This document shows, in pieces, positions 29,710 through 44,105 of a stretch of DNA of 64,000 bases. Position 1 is the stretch's first letter; each line of letters begins with the position of its first letter. The DNA comes from a bacterium. GTDB lineage: Bacteria > Hinthialibacterota > Hinthialibacteria > OLB16. The stretch is from the NCBI GenBank assembly GCA_022072055.1, contig JAJVIK010000004.1, positions 150,820 to 214,819 on the forward strand, given 5' to 3'. Position numbers and translations under genes: made by a program. The notes under the pieces were generated by a model. It worked only from the letters and a program-made list of their open reading frames with translations, had not been told where the DNA came from and did no database searches.

Positions 29710-32700
29710 ATGGCTGGCACACCTCGCCCCCATTATTGCGTCGTCATCCTGGCGCTCCTGGCCTGGGGAACCCCTCTAGCCCACGCCGTTCCCGACCTTC
29801 TCGTGAGCAGCCCCACCAGTGACAAGATCATTCGCTATTCCGGCGCGAACGGCGCTCTGGTCGGGACCTTCGCCTCTTCCTCCGATTCAACCATGAACGA
29901 GCCGCGCGGGTTCACCTTTGGCCCCGATGGACACCTTTATGTCTGTAGTCGCGACAGTCGCCAAGTGCTCAAATACAACGGGTCCGCCGGAACCTTCATT
30001 TCAATCTTTGTCCCCGCGCAACCGGATGGCTTCGAGCCGTTCTGTTGTGTCTTCGGCCCGGACGGACACTTGTATGTCACCAACCGGGCCACGGATCGAG
30101 TGCTTCGCTTCAACGGCTCCACCGGGGCGTTCTTGAGCATCTTTGTTCCCGCCGGAAGCGGCGGCCTGAATGAACCCTCCGGTCTCCGCTTCGGAGGCGA
30201 TGGCCACCTCTATGTGGCCTCGGGTGAGAGCGACAAGATCCTGAAATACAACGGCTCGACCGGAGCCTTCATCGGAGTCTTTGCCTCCACCAACCTGGAT
30301 GACCCACGCGATCTGATCTGGGGTCCGGATGGGAACCTTTATGTAACCAGCGAAGACAACGACCGTGTGGTCCGCTTCAACGGCTCCACAGGGGCCTTTA
30401 TCGATAACTTTGTTTCCACCGGGAGCGGGGGCCTGAATGAACCCAACGGGTTGACGTTCGGCCCGGATGGGCATCTGTATGTCACCAGTGAGAGCAGCGA
30501 CTCCGTTCTCCGGTACAACGGCGCGACAGGGGCGTTCATGGACTCCTTTGTGGGATCGGCCGCCGGGGGACTCAGCCACCCAAATTACCTCCTGTTCTTT
30601 CCACAGGCGGCGCCCGAACCAACCTCCACTCCAACCGAGACCCCCACCGAGACCTTGACCGCAACTCCAACGATCACGGAGACGCCAACCGATACAGTCA
30701 CCTCAACTCCAACGATCACGGAGACGCCCACTCACACGGTCACCGACACGCCCACGATCACCGAGACTCCAACCGACACGGTCACCGACACGCCCACCAT
30801 CACCGAGACTCCAACCGACACGGTCACCGACACGCCCACGATCACCGAGACTCCAACCGACACGGTCACCGACACGCCCACCATCACTGAGACTCCAACC
30901 GACACGATCACCGATACGCCCACCATGACTCGGACTTTCACCCAAACGGTGACGAACACCCCATCAGCGACAAGGACCTTCACTCCAAGCTCCACCCGGA
31001 CTCACACGCCAACCAAAACGCGCACCGCCACGGGCACGGCGACGCGAACCGCCACGCCCTCGCCCACCCGGACCTTCACTTCGACCGTGACCCGGACCCC
31101 AACACCGACCATCACAAGGACGCCGACAAGTACGGCGACCGACACCTCCACGGTGACTCACACCCCCAGCAATACCGCGACCAGCACGCCCACGATCACC
31201 AACACTCCCTCATCCACTCCGACTCGCACGCACACCATCACGGAAACGCCCACTCACTCGAGCACTGTGACCGCCACTCCAACGCGATCCTTCACGCATA
31301 CATCGACAGTGACTCAGACTCCGACCAGCACACCCACTCGCACCCACACAATCACTCAAACTCCAACGGCCACGCCGACCCGCACCTCCACGGTCACCTC
31401 GACCCCCACCGACACGGCGACTCGGACCTTCACCATCACCGACACCCCCACTCCCAGCGCGAGCGTGACCAGCACGCTCACCCAAACTCCAACTCGGACT
31501 GGCACGGCAACTCACACGGTGACCGCCACTCCAAGCCGGTCTTTCACACGGACTTCCACGGTCACGGCCACTCCGAGCTCGACTCCGAGCTCCACATGGA
31601 CCGTGACTCAGACCCCGAGCCGAACAGTGACACGGACCTTCACGGCGACCCACACGCCGACAGCCACGCCCACGCGCGCCTTCACGGTCACGAACACCCC
31701 GAGCGCAACTTTCACTTCAACCCGGACAGTGACCGGCACCCCCACGCGAACCGCGACTCCTTCCTCCACGTCGACAACCACCTTCACTCCCACGCCGACT
31801 CGGACCGCGAGCCCCTCGCGGACGTTCACCAACACGGCCACTCCGACCGCGACGTTCTCACCCACCCGCACTCCGACTCGAACCGGAACGCCCACGCCCA
31901 CGCCGACCCACACTCAAGGGGAGCCGGTGTTCACCGACCCGCTTCCCCTGCTCGGGGGAGTGGATAAGGAAATCTTCACCGCGATTGTGATCGCGGAGCT
32001 GGACGGGGATTCCGAGCCGGAACTGGTGCATGGCTCCGACCGGACCGGTTCGGCGGACTCCGGGTTGGGACTCTTCGCGATGAACCTGGATGGAACACCG
32101 GTTCCGGGGAACTGGCCGGTCATTCTGGACGTGGATATCCGTAGCAGCCCCGCGGCGGCGGACCTGGATGGCGACTGCTTGGATGAGATTGTGGTGGGGA
32201 CCTACGGCCCTCCATTCACGATTCGGATTTACGACAACGATGGGACCGAGATCGGACGCTCCAGCTCCAATTTCGGAGTGATCTCCTCCCCAGCGATCGG
32301 CGACCTCAACCGGGATGGCGAATTGGAGATTGTCGTCGGAACCTCGGATGGGACCCTCAAGGTTCTTAAGAAAGACGGATCGCCATTCTCATCGGGATGG
32401 CCGGTGACGCTGCCGGGTAGATCGACTCCGCTGGTTCGAGGCATGCGGAACGATGTGGACTCCTCGCCGGCGTTGGGTGACCTCGATGGGGATGGCTTCC
32501 CGGAGATCGTGGCGCTCTCGGACCACGGGATTGTTTACGCCTACGACCGAAACGGCCGGCCGCTCCTCGGATTCCCCTTCATCGCGCCCGCCAACACCTT
32601 CCCTCCGGGCATCACCGAGGCATTGAACTTCGCCTCGCCGATCATCGCGGACATCGACGGGGATGGCCGCCTCGACATCATCGTCGCCATGACCAACGCG

Positions 32701-33168
32701 CGGGTCTATGGACTGCGTGGAGATGGGAGCCCGCTGCCCGGATTCCCTCTGGTTTTCCCACCGGGAGCCCAGCCGGACGCGCGAGCGCGTTTTGGCGATG
32801 ACATCCTTTCCACTCCCGCCGTGGGCGATGTCGATGGGGATGGCCTGCTCGAGCTCGCGGTGGCGTTCCATAGCGGCCCGGAGAAGAAGTCGCGCCTCTA
32901 TGTGTTCGATCTGCTCGGTCCCGCGAAAGAGCATGCCTTGCAGTGGCCGACCTTCCACGGGAATCCCCTGCGAACCGGTTACTACCCCGGGCCCCCGACT
33001 GGAGATGCCAATCGGGATGGGAATGTGGATGGAGAGGACCTGATGAAATTCCTGAACACCTGGCAGCGCCACCCAACCATGCCGAGGTACAACCCGCTTT
33101 TCGATTTCAACCTGGATGGCCGGACCAATGGGATCGATCTCCCCCCGCTGCTGGAGGAGACCCGGTAG
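29710..33168 (+). CDS. Secreted NHL-propeller / Thr-Pro stalk / FG-GAP / dockerin protein
   Basis: 1152 residues. Signal peptide [19 protein letters not shown]. Residues about 27-300 hold six NHL-like blades (repeated [10 protein letters not shown]..SDxVLRYNGxTGAF). Residues about 303-737 are a 435-residue low-complexity stalk of TPTxTxT/TETPTDT repeats, likely extended. Residues about 745-1090 contain VCBS/FG-GAP blades with calcium-type DxDGDG loops ([65 protein letters not shown]). The C-terminus is a type I dockerin with two loops, [19 protein letters not shown] and [19 protein letters not shown]. Extracellular, probably surface-linked; no cohesin is visible in the window. The function is probably adhesion or ligand capture. 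Confidence 0.88.
30736..30903 (+). repeat. 42-base tandem repeats within the stalk-coding region
   Basis: Four consecutive 42-base units, starting ACGGTCACCGACACGCCCAC and encoding [14 protein letters not shown], are nearly identical. Units alternate between a G and a C at the same position (CACGATC versus CACCATC), giving an 84-base higher-order period, and a fifth degenerate unit follows. Flanking stalk sequence to about 31915 keeps the 6-base Thr-Pro rhythm but has diverged. Recent slippage or unequal recombination is the likely origin. Confidence 0.85.
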
Positions 33169-36803: not shown

Positions 36804-38780
36804 ATGCGAACTCAGAGGGTTCTCAAAGTCTTCTTGGCCTCCGCCTTTTTGATTCTCCCCACGCTAGTGTTTCGGCCCAGGCACATTCTGGCCCAGGACT
36901 CGGCTCCAGCGGAGAAATGGGCCTTTCTGATTGCCTTGGACCAATACCAAGACCTGCCCAGACCCCGTTTGCGCGTGGACCACGCCGGGCGCATCGCCAA
37001 CCTGCTGTGGGAGAAGTTCCATTTCACCAAGGTGGTGGAACTCTACGACGGCGATGCCACCCGCGCGGAGATCATCAAACTGCTCCGGTCCCTGGGGGAG
37101 GCGCGGGCCGCGAACGCCGGAATTCTGGTGTACTTCAACGGGTACTCCAGCGCCAGGCCCGAAGGGGATGAGGTGGATTGGTATGGCTTCGATTCGGAGA
37201 GCCGCACCGAGGCGGTTCCCTCAGACCTGGTGCAGACCGTGCTTCGCTCCATTCGCGCGCGACATGTGCTCGTCCTATCCGGGGCGGGATTCAGCGCGCG
37301 TGTGCTCTCCTCGGGCGGAGGGGTCGACCCGAACCTCCGCTCACGCCAAGCGATTGCCTACACCCCCCAAGTCGAGTCCGCCTCGGACCCCTTCGGAAAA
37401 GCGCTGGTCTCCATCCTGAAAGGTCTCGGGGAGGGGGAAAGCCTGAATGGAAGCGAACTCGCCCAGCGGCTCGCGCGGGAGGTCGGCGAGGATGCCATCC
37501 TGTCCGGAGTGATCCGCAACACCGGAGATGAGGGCGGGACCTTCCCCCTTTCCTCCGAGAAGGTCGAGGAAGGGGTTCTTCTGGGGGTCCTCAAGGATGC
37601 CGAGAGCGGCAGCCCATTGCCCGGTCTATCGGTCGGGATTCAAGGGATCGACCGCAAGGGCAGAACCGGGGCGAGCGGGGAGTTTCGACTCTGGGCGCCG
37701 CCTGGGGTTTACTCCGCCCTGGTCGTAGAAGGCTCGGCCCCCGGCGAGGTTCTGGTTCTTCCACTCGATTTCGAGGTCCATCCGGGCGAGGAGCTCCCGC
37801 TGGGCCCCTTGGAGGTGGCCTTCGCGCCCAGTCCGGAACCCCCAGCCCCCACGCCGACGGCGACCCCGACTCCGATTCCAGCTCCCGAGGTCAAGGCGGC
37901 CACCTCGGAGGCGGCCCGCGAATCGTCCGTGACCGCTCGCGCCGAGGAGATCGCTTTCGAGTCTGTCACCCTCTCCGCCCGTGGCCAACTTCGTGAAACC
38001 AAACCAGGGAGCGCCCGAATCTTCGTTGAAGACTTGGGTGGTGGAATCGGCATGGAGCTGATCGAAATCCCAGCGGGGACCTACACCCGCGGCTCCGAAC
38101 GAACCGAGGAGGGCCACAGACCCTCCGAGGAACCCGCCCTTACCGTCCACATTCCCTCGTTCTATCTGGGACGGTTCGAGGTCACGCAAGACCAGTGGGG
38201 CGCGGTGGCGGAGCTTCCGATGGTTGAGCGTGCGATGGACCCGGACCCCTCGTATTTCAAGGGCGGCGAACGGCCGGTTGAGCGGGTTTCCTGGGAGGAT
38301 GCGGTCGAGTTCTGCGCGCGCCTCTCCAAACACACCGGGCGGGCTTACCGGCTCCCCTCAGAGGCCGAGTGGGAGTATGCCTGCCGCGCGGGGACAACGT
38401 CCCCCTTCCATTTCGGACCCACCCTCTCCCCGGAATACGCGAATTACTTCTCGTCCGACCCATACGGCTCTGGCCCGACCGGACCGTCGCCGCGAGCCAC
38501 CGTGGAGGTCGGCCATTTCGGTTCAGCCAATCCTTTCGGGCTCCACCAAATGCACGGCAATGTGGCCGAATGGTGCGCGGACCTGTGGCATGAGACCTAT
38601 GAGGATGCGCCGGGTGATGGGACGGTTTGGGAAGTCGGCGGGGACCGCTTCCGGCGCGTGATGCGCGGCGGCTCTTGGCGCAATTTCCCAACCGATCTCC
38701 GCTCCGCCGCGCGCAAGGGGCTATCCTGGAATCTTGGAAATAACACGCAGGGCTTCAGGGTGGCGCTCACTAAGCCTTGA
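36804..38780 (+). CDS. Catalytically dead caspase-like domain fused to an FGE/SUMF1-fold domain
   Basis: 658 residues with an N-terminal membrane/export segment. Residues about 38-240 follow the peptidase C14 fold (KWAFLIALDQYQDLP, ATRAEIIKLLRSL, GILVYFNGYSSA), but the catalytic His position reads Tyr114 (normally SGHG) and the catalytic Cys position reads Ala161 in LSGAGFS (normally DACxSG). A carboxypeptidase-regulatory-like beta domain and a Pro/Thr-rich linker follow. Residues about 413-658 are an FGE/SUMF1 domain (MELIEIPAGTYTRGS, RPVERVSWEDAVEFCARLSK, YRLPSEAEWEYACRAGT, MHGNVAEWCADLW, RVMRGGSWRNF). The CX3-4C copper-binding pair after RGGSW in active FGEs is absent. Probably a binding or sensor protein, not an enzyme. 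Confidence 0.83.
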   Translation: MRTQRVLKVFLASAFLILPTLVFRPRHILAQDSAPAEKWAFLIALDQYQDLPRPRLRVDHAGRIANLLWEKFHFTKVVELYDGDATRAEIIKLLRSLGEARAANAGILVYFNGYSSARPEGDEVDWYGFDSESRTEAVPSDLVQTVLRSIRARHVLVLSGAGFSARVLSSGGGVDPNLRSRQAIAYTPQVESASDPFGKALVSILKGLGEGESLNGSELAQRLAREVGEDAILSGVIRNTGDEGGTFPLSSEKVEEGVLLGVLKDAESGSPLPGLSVGIQGIDRKGRTGASGEFRLWAPPGVYSALVVEGSAPGEVLVLPLDFEVHPGEELPLGPLEVAFAPSPEPPAPTPTATPTPIPAPEVKAATSEAARESSVTARAEEIAFESVTLSARGQLRETKPGSARIFVEDLGGGIGMELIEIPAGTYTRGSERTEEGHRPSEEPALTVHIPSFYLGRFEVTQDQWGAVAELPMVERAMDPDPSYFKGGERPVERVSWEDAVEFCARLSKHTGRAYRLPSEAEWEYACRAGTTSPFHFGPTLSPEYANYFSSDPYGSGPTGPSPRATVEVGHFGSANPFGLHQMHGNVAEWCADLWHETYEDAPGDGTVWEVGGDRFRRVMRGGSWRNFPTDLRSAARKGLSWNLGNNTQGFRVALTKP

Positions 38781-38827: not shown

Positions 38828-40234
38828 ATGAAACGAATCGATTTCCTGAAAACCCTCGCGGCGGGGGGCGCGGCGTATGCCGCATGGGGTCCGCATCGAC
38901 TGGCGCGCGCTTGGGCCGCCGATGGGGGCTCCAAGCCTCCCAACTTCGTGTTCATCCTGGCGGACGACTGGGGCTGGGGGGACCTGGGGTGTTATGGCCA
39001 CCCCACGATCAAGACCCCGAATTTGGACCACCTTGCCGGTCAGGGAACTCGATTCACTCAGTACTATGTGAACGGATCGGTGTGTTCTCCCAGCCGCGCC
39101 GGAATCATGACCGGGCATTTCCCAGCCCGGCACGGCATCCACGCCCATCTCGCCACCCATGAACAGAACGCCCAGCGCGACATGCCCAACTGGCTCGATC
39201 CGGAAGTGACCACCCTGCCCGACCTTCTGAAGAGCGCCGGCTACATCACCGGACATTTCGGCAAATGGCACCTGGGCGCGGGCGAGGGAGCGCCGGAACC
39301 GAAGGAATATGGCCTGGACGACTATCGGACCTTCAACGGCAATGGCCCCGGCTGGGAGGGGGTTGCCGATTGGATCCCGAGGTCCAGCGAGCTGATTGTG
39401 GATGAAACCCTCCGCTTCATCGGGGAAAACCGTGCGCGGCCCTTCTTCGTTCAAGCCTGGCTCAAGGACACCCACGCCTATCTCGACCCGACCGAAAAGC
39501 AGCGGGAACCCTACAAGAAACTGGGCGGCGCGCTGGAGATCTATTACGGCGCGGCGACCGACGCCGACCGTCAGATCGGGCGCATCCTCGCCAAGTTGGA
39601 TGAGCTGGGACTCGCCGAAAACACGGTGGTGGTTTTTTCGAGCGACAACGGTCCCGAGGACATCACGATCACCAACGCCTCCCATAGTGGGGTGGGAAGT
39701 CCCGGTCCCTTTCGAGGTCGTAAGCGCAGCCTGTATGAAGGCGGGGTGAGGGTGCCGTTCATTGTCCGCTGGCCCGGGAAGGTTCCCGCCGGTCGGGTGG
39801 ATAACGCCTCGGTGGTGAGCGGAGTGGATCTGCTTCCCACCTTCTGCGCGCTCGCGGGAGTCCCCGATCCCGAGAGCCTCCGGCCGGATGGCCAGGATGT
39901 CTCCGCCGCGCTACTCGGGCGCCCCTTCGAACGGAGGAAGCCGCTCTTCTGGGAGTTCCGCTCCGCCGTGGTTGGGCATGTGATCAATCGAAGCCCGATG
40001 CTCGCCCTCCGCGAAGGGAACTGGAAGCTCTTGATGAACCCAGACCGAAGCCGGATCGAGCTCTACGACATTCCCAACGAAACGAGCGAGCTGAATAACC
40101 TGGCTGATCGAAACCCCGAGGTGGTCGAGCGACTTGCCGGACAACTCCTCGCCTGGCGGAGCGAACTCCCCCCGGGACGTGTGGACAAAGGGGCGGGAGT
40201 GAATGTCTATCCCTGGCCGAAGGAAGCGCATTGA
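38828..40234 (+). CDS. Exported Cys-type sulfatase
   Basis: 468 residues, ATG after GGGAGG. A Tat/Sec-like leader MKRIDFLKTLAAGGAAYAAW precedes FVFILADDWGWGDLGCYGHP (metal Asp46 and Asp47). SVCSPSRAGIMTGHFPARHG contains the C-x-P-S-R motif at Cys86, which must be converted to formylglycine. GKWHLGAGEG and VVFSSDNGPEDITI supply further active-site residues. The length and motifs match type I sulfatases that remove sulfate from polysaccharides in the periplasm. The neighbouring FGE-fold protein lacks the catalytic cysteines, so maturation must depend on another FGE or an anSME encoded elsewhere. Confidence 0.94.
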   Translation: MKRIDFLKTLAAGGAAYAAWGPHRLARAWAADGGSKPPNFVFILADDWGWGDLGCYGHPTIKTPNLDHLAGQGTRFTQYYVNGSVCSPSRAGIMTGHFPARHGIHAHLATHEQNAQRDMPNWLDPEVTTLPDLLKSAGYITGHFGKWHLGAGEGAPEPKEYGLDDYRTFNGNGPGWEGVADWIPRSSELIVDETLRFIGENRARPFFVQAWLKDTHAYLDPTEKQREPYKKLGGALEIYYGAATDADRQIGRILAKLDELGLAENTVVVFSSDNGPEDITITNASHSGVGSPGPFRGRKRSLYEGGVRVPFIVRWPGKVPAGRVDNASVVSGVDLLPTFCALAGVPDPESLRPDGQDVSAALLGRPFERRKPLFWEFRSAVVGHVINRSPMLALREGNWKLLMNPDRSRIELYDIPNETSELNNLADRNPEVVERLAGQLLAWRSELPPGRVDKGAGVNVYPWPKEAH

Positions 40235-40272
40235 ATTGCCATGATGGGAAAGGGCCTAGTGAGGTGTCCTCC

Positions 40273-42165
40273 ATGTCGCTAAAGGAGGAGTGCGCGAACC
40301 TAGCGGTCATCCTTTTCGCGGTCTTCTTCATCGGGGTGGTGGTCCGGACCGCTTGGCTCAGCGACTCGGCCTTTGTGGACCTCCGCATCGCCGACAACCT
40401 GGCCCACGGGTTCGGGTTTCGCTGGAACATGGACGAACGGGTCCTGGTGACCGATCACCCCCTCTGGACTCTGATCCTCGCCGGCTTCTATTTCTTCACC
40501 GAAGAACCTTATTACACCACGATCCTCCTCTCCGTAGGCCTGTCCTTCGCCGCCATCCTGGTGTTCGCCCTCGGAATTGCATCCTCCGAACCGGCGGCGA
40601 TCGTGGGGATTTCCATTCTCGCGCTCTCGAAGGCTTTCGTGGATTACTCGACCTCGGGTTTGGAGACCGCCTTGCTTCACTTCTTGTTGGTTGGTTTCCT
40701 GATGGTTTGGCTGAACCATGAACAGAGGCGGTGGTATCTTTTTCTTCTTGCCCTGATGTTCTCCTTGGTTCTCCTGACCCGCGTCGAGGCCGGTGTTCTG
40801 ATCCTTCCACTCCTAGCGGCGGCAGGCTGGAAGCGCCGGACACCCTCCACCATCCTGGCGCTCCTCGCCGGATTTGTCCCATTCCTGTGCTGGGAGGTCT
40901 TCTCGCTGCTCTACTTTGGCTTCCCGCGGGCCACCCCCAGCTATGCGGTTTCCCGGTCGGGTGTCTCCGCCGGGATTTGGGTCATCCAAGGAATCCATTA
41001 CCACCTCAATTCGATCAACCTCGATCCGCTGACTTTATCGGTGATCGTTTCAGTTCTGGTGGTGACTTGCTTGGTCCGAGATCGGTTCTCGCTGCTGATG
41101 GCGTTAGGCACTGGCCTTTACTTGGCGGGGACCCTCTTATGCGGCGGGGACCGGATGAGCGGGCATCTCTTCTCGGCGCCGCTCTTTTGCGCCGTGGCGA
41201 TCCTCTCCAGGTGGGATGCCTCCCTGCTCAAGACCTGGCTGCCCGTGTGGGGTCTCATCCTTGCGGTGGGTTTCCACACGGAGGACTGCCCGGTCTTGAG
41301 CGGACCGAATTACGGCCGCACGGAGGTCCGCCTCGACAATTTGATCGCGAACGAACGCGAGGTCTTCTATCCCTGGACCGGACTCTCCCGAGTTCAACGC
41401 GAGCAGAATAACTTCGGGCACAGCTGGGCTATCCGCGGAGAGATGCTGCGGAACAGCGGTGACCGCGCAACCCTGGTGGAATCCAATGTCGGCATGCTCG
41501 GGTATTTCGGGGGTCCTGGGGTTTACCTTCTCCATCCTTGCGGCCTGGCTGATCCCCTCCTCGCCCGGATGCCCGGGAAGCACCCCACCGACATCCTGGG
41601 GGAACGTCGCCTGCCCAAGGGCTACCTCAAGTCCCTCGAAACCGGGACAAACTGTATCCACGAGCAGCATCTCTCCAAGTATTACGACAAGATTGTATTG
41701 CTCACTCGCGGCGACTTGGGGTCCAAGGACCGCTTGAAGACCCTCATCGCCCTCAACATGGGCGTGTACGATCATCTTTTGGATGGCTACCTCTCAGAGC
41801 CGGTCTACAGTGTGACCAACGCCTCTTTCGGAACCCCCGCCGAAGAGGGCGACCCCTGGGATGCGCCGGACAACTTGATCATCGAGAGCTCCACGGTGGG
41901 GTTTGACTTTGGGACCCTCCAACATTCGCCGATGTTCGAAATCAGCCTCGACCATAACGACCGCTACCGGCTCACCTTCCAACTGGACTCGGTCCCACAA
42001 GGGGAGCTGCTCCTCGAAACCGATCGTCGCACCACTCCCGGGCTCACAGTGTACCGCGCCGCGCTTCCCTCCGAGGTGGTTTCGCGCGGGTATGACAGCT
42101 TCATCCTCGAGCCGGTGTCAGGCGATGGCTTCTACTCGATGGGTCATTTCCGACTACTGGAATGA
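40273..42165 (+). CDS. GT-C-type membrane glycosyltransferase-like protein, first copy
   Basis: About 630 residues from the ATG at 40273 (GAGGT upstream). It has roughly ten hydrophobic segments in the N-terminal 340 residues and a soluble C-terminal domain. The first loop reads LSDSAFVDLRIADNLAHGFG, then RWNMDERVLVTDHPLWTLIL. This is the AftB-like GT-C arrangement (loop DDAYITYR..NxxxGxG, then THPLW), but the acidic pair expected at the active site is SDS rather than DD. The paralogue immediately downstream retains DD. Enzymes of this type transfer sugars from polyprenyl phosphates outside the inner membrane. This copy may have altered specificity or be inactive. Confidence 0.78.
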   Translation: MSLKEECANLAVILFAVFFIGVVVRTAWLSDSAFVDLRIADNLAHGFGFRWNMDERVLVTDHPLWTLILAGFYFFTEEPYYTTILLSVGLSFAAILVFALGIASSEPAAIVGISILALSKAFVDYSTSGLETALLHFLLVGFLMVWLNHEQRRWYLFLLALMFSLVLLTRVEAGVLILPLLAAAGWKRRTPSTILALLAGFVPFLCWEVFSLLYFGFPRATPSYAVSRSGVSAGIWVIQGIHYHLNSINLDPLTLSVIVSVLVVTCLVRDRFSLLMALGTGLYLAGTLLCGGDRMSGHLFSAPLFCAVAILSRWDASLLKTWLPVWGLILAVGFHTEDCPVLSGPNYGRTEVRLDNLIANEREVFYPWTGLSRVQREQNNFGHSWAIRGEMLRNSGDRATLVESNVGMLGYFGGPGVYLLHPCGLADPLLARMPGKHPTDILGERRLPKGYLKSLETGTNCIHEQHLSKYYDKIVLLTRGDLGSKDRLKTLIALNMGVYDHLLDGYLSEPVYSVTNASFGTPAEEGDPWDAPDNLIIESSTVGFDFGTLQHSPMFEISLDHNDRYRLTFQLDSVPQGELLLETDRRTTPGLTVYRAALPSEVVSRGYDSFILEPVSGDGFYSMGHFRLLE

Positions 42166-44105
42166 ATTTGCCCGATCCATCCCGTGAAAGCATGACCGAG
42201 CAGAGGCGGAATCCGCGAACCCGGGACCGCGTTCTCATGGCGCTCGCGACCGTCCTCTTTGGCGTCGTCCTGGTCCGGACAGCGTGGCTATGTGATGACG
42301 CCTACATCACCTTGCGGACAGTGGACAATTTTACCCATGGTTTCGGACTCCGCTGGAATATCGCGGACCGTGTGCAGGCCTACACCCATCCGTTGTGGAT
42401 GTTTCTGATCTCCTCGGTCTATTCCTTCACCGAGGAGCCGTATTACACGGCGCTTTTCCTTTCCATCGGGGTGAGCACGGCCGCCGTGGCCTTGTTTCTC
42501 CTCAAACTGGCGCCACCGGGGCGTGGTGTCCTCTTGGCGGCGACTGTCCTGATTCTGTCAAAGGCCTTTGTGGATTACTCCACCTCGGGACTCGAAAACC
42601 CCCTGACCCACCTGCTTCTGGTTCTCTTCTTGTGGCTTTTCTTTCAGGGAGTCGAGAGTGGCTTAGGACTGTTGGCGTTGTCGGGAGTCGCCGCGCTCGG
42701 CACGGTCAACCGCCTCGACACCGCCCTCCTGTTCGCGCCCGCCGTTGCCCTTGCATGGTGGAAGCGCCCCAAGATCAAAGGGACGTTGGCGCTCCTTGCG
42801 GGAGGGATTCCATTGATCGCCTGGACCACCTTCTCGCTCGTCTATTACGGTTTCCCCTTCCCGAACACCGCCTACGCCAAACTCAGCACGGGGGTTCCTC
42901 CGAGCACTCTCGCGCTCCAGGGCATTCATTACTTTGTCAATTCGATTTCCATGGACCCCCTCACGCTCCTGGTGATCGGCGCGGGGATGTTTTTGGGATG
43001 GATTCAAGGGGGAGCGGCCGAGCGCGCGGTGGCGCTTGGCGTGTGTTTTTACCTGGTCTATGTCATCCGGGTCGGCGGCGATTTCATGAGCGGGCGGTTC
43101 TTCTCCGCCCCGCTGGTGTTCGCGCTCGCCTTGGTCGTCCGGTCTCCGCTAAGGTTCTGGAAGGAGTGGCTTCCCGCCACCACGCTTGTTCTGTTCGTGG
43201 GCTTGTCCTCCCCCTTGTGTCCGGTTCGAACCGGCGGCGAGTACGGGAACCCGGAATTGGTCCTCGATAACGGGATCGCGGATGAACGCAAGATCTACTA
43301 TGGCTGGACCGGCCTGTTGAAACACGACTGGAGGGTTCCGGTCATCCAACATAAATGGGGGACCGAGGGGGCCGAATTTCGCGCTCGGGGGGATTGCTTC
43401 ATCCCCAACCGAACCGGGATGGGATTCCTTGGCTACTTCTCCGGTCCGCGGGTCCATATCCTGGATCAGCATGGCCTCACTGAGCCGCTCCTTGCCCGCC
43501 TGGAAGTTTTCGACAAGGAGGGCTGGAGAATTGGGCACATGGTTCGTGAGGTCCCTCGAGGGTACCGTGAAACCCTCGAAGGCGGGGAAAGCCGGATCGC
43601 GGACCCCGACCTTGCCGAATACCATGAGCTCCTTGGCCTGATCACGCGCGGAAACCTGTTTGATCGTAAACGATGGGCGGCGATCCTCCGAATGAACCTC
43701 GGGGAATGCAACCTCCTCCTCGGAGATTACCATCGGAACCGAATCCAGCATCTTCGCGCCGCCGACGTGGCCCTTCCTCGGCCGGATGGGGCCCGGTGGG
43801 AGGATTCCGGCGTGAAACGGATTTCGAGGGAGGCGCTGCAGGTGGAGTTGGATAGGACCCATTTCTCGAACGAGATGGAGATCAGTCTGGATGGGAATGA
43901 CGTTTACCGGATCGATCTGGTTTTGCGCGACACCCGGATCGCGGATTTCGTGATCGAACCGGAGTCGGGCGCGCCGACCGGGTTGGTGACCCGAAAACTC
44001 GCGGTTCCGGCGGCCGCGCGCTGGAGGGGCTTCGATAGCGTGAGGGTTGTGCCCCTTTCCGGAGACGAGAGATACAGCGTGGGACACCTGATTCTCAAGG
44101 AATGA
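42162..44105 (+). CDS. GT-C-type membrane glycosyltransferase-like protein, second copy
   Basis: 647 residues, overlapping the first copy by ATGA (an ATG at 42192 is an alternative start). LCDDAYITLRTVDNFTHGFG and RWNIADRVQAYTHPLWMFLI match AftB-like GT-C enzymes, with the DD pair intact. VDYSTSGLENPLTHLLLVLF and a soluble C-terminal domain (DEISLDGNDVYRIDLVL-like beta strands) parallel the first copy throughout. The family uses polyprenyl-linked sugars at the periplasmic face; in actinobacteria AftB adds arabinose to the cell-wall polymer, but the sugar here is unknown. Tandem duplication followed by divergence is the simplest history. Confidence 0.82.
   Translation: MNLPDPSRESMTEQRRNPRTRDRVLMALATVLFGVVLVRTAWLCDDAYITLRTVDNFTHGFGLRWNIADRVQAYTHPLWMFLISSVYSFTEEPYYTALFLSIGVSTAAVALFLLKLAPPGRGVLLAATVLILSKAFVDYSTSGLENPLTHLLLVLFLWLFFQGVESGLGLLALSGVAALGTVNRLDTALLFAPAVALAWWKRPKIKGTLALLAGGIPLIAWTTFSLVYYGFPFPNTAYAKLSTGVPPSTLALQGIHYFVNSISMDPLTLLVIGAGMFLGWIQGGAAERAVALGVCFYLVYVIRVGGDFMSGRFFSAPLVFALALVVRSPLRFWKEWLPATTLVLFVGLSSPLCPVRTGGEYGNPELVLDNGIADERKIYYGWTGLLKHDWRVPVIQHKWGTEGAEFRARGDCFIPNRTGMGFLGYFSGPRVHILDQHGLTEPLLARLEVFDKEGWRIGHMVREVPRGYRETLEGGESRIADPDLAEYHELLGLITRGNLFDRKRWAAILRMNLGECNLLLGDYHRNRIQHLRAADVALPRPDGARWEDSGVKRISREALQVELDRTHFSNEMEISLDGNDVYRIDLVLRDTRIADFVIEPESGAPTGLVTRKLAVPAAARWRGFDSVRVVPLSGDERYSVGHLILKE

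Follow-up and report, generated by a model that had tools for sequence, protein, structure and literature searches.

Gene and domain architecture

The window, i.e. the whole 64,000-nt stretch of bacterial DNA under analysis, contains at positions 36804-38780 (+ strand) an intact open reading frame of 658 aa. Its GC content by codon position resembles that of the adjacent genes, and since the frame is intact and GC3 (0.757) equals that of the neighbours, the gene is not an obvious pseudogene. The N-terminus (residues 1 to about 31; 36804-36896) has the appearance of a Sec-type signal peptide, with the h-region VLKVFLASAFLILPTLVF and a cleavage site judged by eye; no other segment of the protein is strongly hydrophobic (the 19-residue Kyte-Doolittle profile peaks at residue 6). 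From this signal peptide, called by eye, we infer that the protein is probably exported. The predicted mature part comprises a degenerate p20 (caspase/C14) domain (residues 36-245; 36909-37538), recognized by hhalign, BLASTP and alignment, a CarboxypepD_reg-like β-sandwich domain (residues 260-314; 37581-37745), a Pro/Thr/Ala-rich linker (37821-38037; PEPPAPTPTATPTPIPAPEV and onward) and a C-terminal FGE-sulfatase domain (PF03781, C-type-lectin-like; residues 418-654; 38055-38765). The CarboxypepD_reg-like segment corresponds to a sub-threshold Pfam match to PF13620 (E-value 4.6e-5; its 24.1 bits do not reach the gathering score of 32.3) and is conserved, with 32% identity, in a paralogue from the same genome (see below). 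The signal peptide, this weak match and the Pro/Thr-rich linker were all absent from the earlier, sequence-only reading of the locus.

A Cys-type sulfatase gene follows on the same strand, 47 nt downstream (38828-40234); its product matches PF00884 (E-value 6e-58), displays the CSPSR motif, in agreement with the sequence-only reading, and has a Tat-like KRxDFLK N-terminus. Further downstream, two tandem genes (40231-42165 and 42162-44105, + strand) encode similar 640-aa multi-transmembrane proteins that look like GT-C glycosyltransferases; a Pfam scan of the first of them matched no family. Upstream, the gene at 29710-33168 (+ strand) encodes a secreted protein of 1152 aa, with a long TPT/TxT repeat stretch between beta-propeller-like and FG-GAP-like parts. 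Comparison of the 658-aa protein with the PADLOC defence models gave 0 matches, and its assignment to a known anti-phage defence system was rejected.

The p20 domain

The assignment of the N-terminal domain to the p20/C14 family is sound despite the lack of a match to Pfam PF00656 (Peptidase_C14), a profile that finds two other genes in the genome and skips this one. An hhalign comparison with a profile built from eight further p20 domains, the window protein not being among them, confidently identified the relationship (probability 99.3%, E-value 2e-20), and BLASTP aligned residues 38-309 to an orthocaspase of the same genome with an E-value of 2e-28; NCBIfam additionally reported a weak match to caspase_w_EACC1 (E-value 0.0085). 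A search of the PDB with the p20 domain alone returned only unrelated weak matches, and no p20 relatives were found in the viral contigs scanned. Single-sequence AlphaFold models were poor (pLDDT 36 for the full length and 42 for the p20 domain only), and a Foldseek search with the predicted structure gave no match at E-value ≤ 0.001. The order of strands and helices in the p20 model fits a caspase-like fold, but given the quality of this model we attach no weight to it, and the p20 fold is a prediction from sequence alone.

According to the alignments, the SGHG motif reads NGYS in the window protein, with Tyr114 (37143-37145) in place of the catalytic His, as already recognized in the sequence-only reading. 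The DAC/DSC motif reads GAG, and the column of the catalytic Cys is occupied by Gly162 (37287-37289), not by Ala161, which had been named instead and which is the small residue preceding that column. The only cysteines of the protein (504, 527 and 591) lie in the FGE-like domain, and since residues 1-503 contain none, an alternative Cys nucleophile in the p20 domain is impossible; a shifted active site, i.e. another His/Cys pair brought into register by a different alignment, is thus ruled out. Both acidic residues of the S1 pocket are also lost (Asp95 replaced by His60 and Asp211 by Gly160; TbMC2 numbering, from PMC6426788), and in the alignment the downstream GHSVFT loop is deleted. Among the 115 p20 domains that could be scored (see below), only this one has lost both S1 acids. 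The protein thus has the substituted dyad of a pseudo-orthocaspase (YG) instead of that of an active orthocaspase, and has not retained the acidic S1 pocket. Since both the dyad and the S1 acids are gone, neither catalysis nor binding of a basic substrate is expected at the old site, and the domain is predicted to be incapable of the known C14 chemistry. As the S1 acids are highly conserved even among pseudo-orthocaspases (PMC6426788), the alignments indicate not a well-preserved p20 domain but an unusually degenerate one. The former opinion that the fold motifs of both domains are well preserved therefore holds for the FGE-like domain, and only in part for p20, with its missed PF00656 match, lost S1 acids and deleted loop.

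The FGE-like domain

The C-terminal domain is matched by PF03781 with high confidence (Pfam E-value 6.4e-46). The positions of the redox/copper pair of the human enzyme, Cys336 and Cys341, are occupied by Asn627 (38682-38684) and Leu632 (38697-38699), i.e. the protein combines the PF03781 fold of SUMF1-type FGEs with the absence of their Cys pair. The earlier statement that this pair is missing is thereby confirmed, and the view that neither of the two domains could use the known chemistry of its family is supported by these substitutions and those in the p20 dyad.

The coincidence of the two losses had been presented as unusual, which the survey of related domains does not bear out. Among the 127 FGE-fold domains found in the fetched loci, 17 are gapped at the Cys positions; of the remaining 110, alignable at both, a single one has the pair, 59 have only the second Cys and 50 have neither. 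The exception, L108:2397-4617 from an Oculatellaceae cyanobacterium MAG, displays two Cys residues at FGE spacing (GGAWYCPPALC). The genome of the window protein itself has 15 PF03781 matches, and none of the C-terminal segments that could be read exhibits the pair (one partial match, L015, does not include the segment carrying these positions). Most PF03781 domains thus lack the Cys pair as a rule, so the apparent double loss counts as one event, in the p20 domain.

The best matches among solved structures are PvdO (5hha, E-value 2.8e-31), a Treponema variable protein and ToxD, all of them ahead of true FGEs. Domains of the PF03781 type are regarded as a subtype of the C-type lectin fold, for which a role as sensors in conflict systems has been proposed by the authors of previous analyses (PMC10907252, PMC7159879). 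A sensor or sugar/peptide-binding role, as suggested in the sequence-only reading, would still be plausible. A C-type-lectin variable protein diversified by a diversity-generating retroelement (DGR) was considered and rejected: no match to PF00078 (reverse transcriptase) was found in the genome, which is 96.6% complete.

An intact paralogue, survey and phylogeny

Another contig of the same genome encodes a paralogue (G000:C5:337230-339100, - strand; loci L014 and L047) that exhibits the same order of elements: a signal peptide, p20, a CarboxypepD_reg-like domain, a Pro-rich linker and an FGE domain without the Cys pair. Unlike the window protein, it retains the His-Cys dyad (YFSGHG and CDSCFSG) and the S1 acids; the two proteins share 28% identity in the p20 part and 39% in the FGE part. 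The neighbours of the two genes are unrelated, and the large genes beside the paralogue resemble what we take to be PVC-type membrane-bound dehydrogenases.

A p20 profile that included the window protein was searched against a preset sample of 386 genomes, of which 85 matched; scoring covered the ORFs in the stretches retrieved, the window protein itself being counted. Among the 115 p20 domains with both catalytic columns, 107 have the HC dyad and 8 (7%) a substituted one: YG (the window protein), HG, HA (twice), HS, YS, YA and RA. The p20-FGE fusions (n=18) comprise 14 with the HC dyad, 3 pseudo forms (the window protein, L142 and L081) and 1 partial sequence. Pseudo-p20 domains are not significantly enriched in these fusions (3/17 versus 5/98, Fisher p 0.09; 0.25 without the window protein). 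The window gene is present in one copy, and no orthologue close enough for selection to be measured was found in the 386 genomes.

Of all terminal branches in the p20 tree (93 rows), that of the window protein is the longest (1.93), which is compatible with relaxed constraint. Its sister is L142 (contig G047:C19; support 99/82), from a genome outside the class of the window's organism, followed by the paralogue with the intact dyad (98/82); as the branches are long, this placement is unsure. The pseudo label requires five changes on the tree, and the dyad must therefore have been lost repeatedly, in agreement with the "multiple independent emergences" of PMC6426788.

Comparison with known pseudo-orthocaspases

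Orthocaspases without the HC dyad have been described before (858/9,994, i.e. 8.6%; PMC6426788), and a strongly degenerated member of this group is how the window protein is best classified from its sequence. As in the published cases (PMC6426788; SyOC, PMC7889975), the His/Cys dyad is substituted, and Tyr is the commonest substitute for His; however, the Tyr-Gly combination does not figure among the common dyads given for them, and the published forms keep both S1 Asp residues, which are missing here. Such proteins can be functional, since deletion of a pseudo-orthocaspase of Synechocystis altered the tolerance of oxidative stress (PMC7889975). The FGE-sulfatase domain is the fifth most spread partner of bacterial metacaspases (4.9%), and conservation of the dyad falls to 64% in Planctomycetes (PMC3501461). 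A CH-negative Bac_PepC14/FGE-sulfatase protein of Trichodesmium erythraeum (GI 113475804), tabulated in 2012 (PMC3501461), has the same combination of a non-catalytic p20 and an FGE-sulfatase domain; this cyanobacterial protein is likened to the window protein by its tabulated architecture. What the window protein adds is a pocket lost more fully than in the published pseudo forms, together with a paralogue of the same architecture and an intact dyad.

Functional interpretation

We propose, with a probability of about 0.6, that the window protein is an exported, non-catalytic pseudo-orthocaspase that works by binding or scaffolding and derives from a p20-CarboxypepD_reg-FGE-fold protein. Its ancestor would have been a true orthocaspase-FGE, of which a version with the intact dyad survives elsewhere in the same genome. 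The FGE-fold domain, held on the Pro/Thr linker, may recognize an envelope or extracellular ligand, while the dead p20 domain could serve as a platform for protein-protein interactions, possibly towards the active paralogue.

A more specific alternative is that the dead p20 domain pairs with or shields the intact orthocaspase-FGE, as a dominant regulator or decoy following a logic like that of cFLIP, with the FGE domain sensing the trigger. Besides the existence of such a paralogue, it would be in line with the situation in three other genomes, where pseudo-p20 genes (HA, RA and YA variants) lie close to genes with the intact dyad, which suggests pseudo/active pairs: in G096 (L151 near L145; also the stretch L157, G096:C13:42.0-44.3 kb), in G283 (both genes on L261) and in G249 (L237, which shares a 10-kb stretch with L172). 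In our case, however, the two genes reside on different contigs among unrelated neighbours and the p20 parts share only 28% identity, and we consider such direct regulation unlikely.

The grouping with L142 (also L155:5734-7665) hints weakly at a subfamily without catalytic function. L142 likewise has Gly in place of the p20 Cys and a C-terminal FGE domain, but it retains the His and the S1 acids, has a coiled-coil-like linker instead of CarboxypepD_reg and adjoins no sulfatase. That the two proteins represent a Cys-to-Gly p20-FGE subfamily spanning distant lineages, in which p20 has turned into a receptor or scaffold and the FGE-fold domain senses an envelope ligand and controls an active orthocaspase-FGE paralogue, appears doubtful to us, and more so than the decoy.

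It is also rather improbable that the FGE-like domain catalyses a different reaction, with a PvdO-like redox function and p20 as its scaffold. PvdO, named dihydropyoverdine dehydrogenase by NCBIfam, is both the closest solved relative and the closest NCBIfam equivalog (E-value 1e-37), but the score of 129.7 bits, where the cut-off is 500, indicates that the window protein is not PvdO itself, which is a stand-alone protein (286 aa in the PDB entry), and there were no siderophore genes among those immediate neighbours that could be identified. We give equally little credence to a duplicated gene on its way to decay, without present function: the extreme p20 branch, the loss of several pocket residues and a loop, and the occurrence as one copy without a close orthologue would all fit, but the 658-codon frame is intact, GC3 is that of the neighbours and the FGE domain still matches PF03781 strongly.

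The adjacent sulfatase might be taken to implicate the PF03781 domain in sulfatase maturation, the tie implied by the sequence-only reading. The search of the genome for an active FGE or anSME, proposed there, did reveal an anSME (TIGR03942, 409.9 bits versus the NCBIfam cut-off of 349.45). The genome has 29 PF00884 matches, 21 of which, including the neighbour, display the Cys-type motif by our count and are scattered along it; the anSME is predicted to be able to mature these 21, and the neighbouring sulfatase would for this reason need nothing from the window protein. Among the other p20-FGE fusions (20 ORF records, some of them duplicates), no sulfatase was found in the flanks examined, mostly 1.5-2.5 kb. 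No functional link between the two neighbours is indicated, and we reject a maturase of the adjacent sulfatase as highly improbable, contradicted by the absent Cys pair, the anSME, the 20 further Cys-type sulfatases elsewhere in the genome and the flanks of the other fusions.

The case serves mainly as a corrective: an "FGE-sulfatase domain" in a caspase fusion should not be taken for an enzyme that activates sulfatases, nor does a neighbouring sulfatase gene turn it into one. A genome that encodes both a true orthocaspase-FGE and a far-degenerated pseudo version provides a usable natural contrast for testing the role of bacterial pseudo-caspases.
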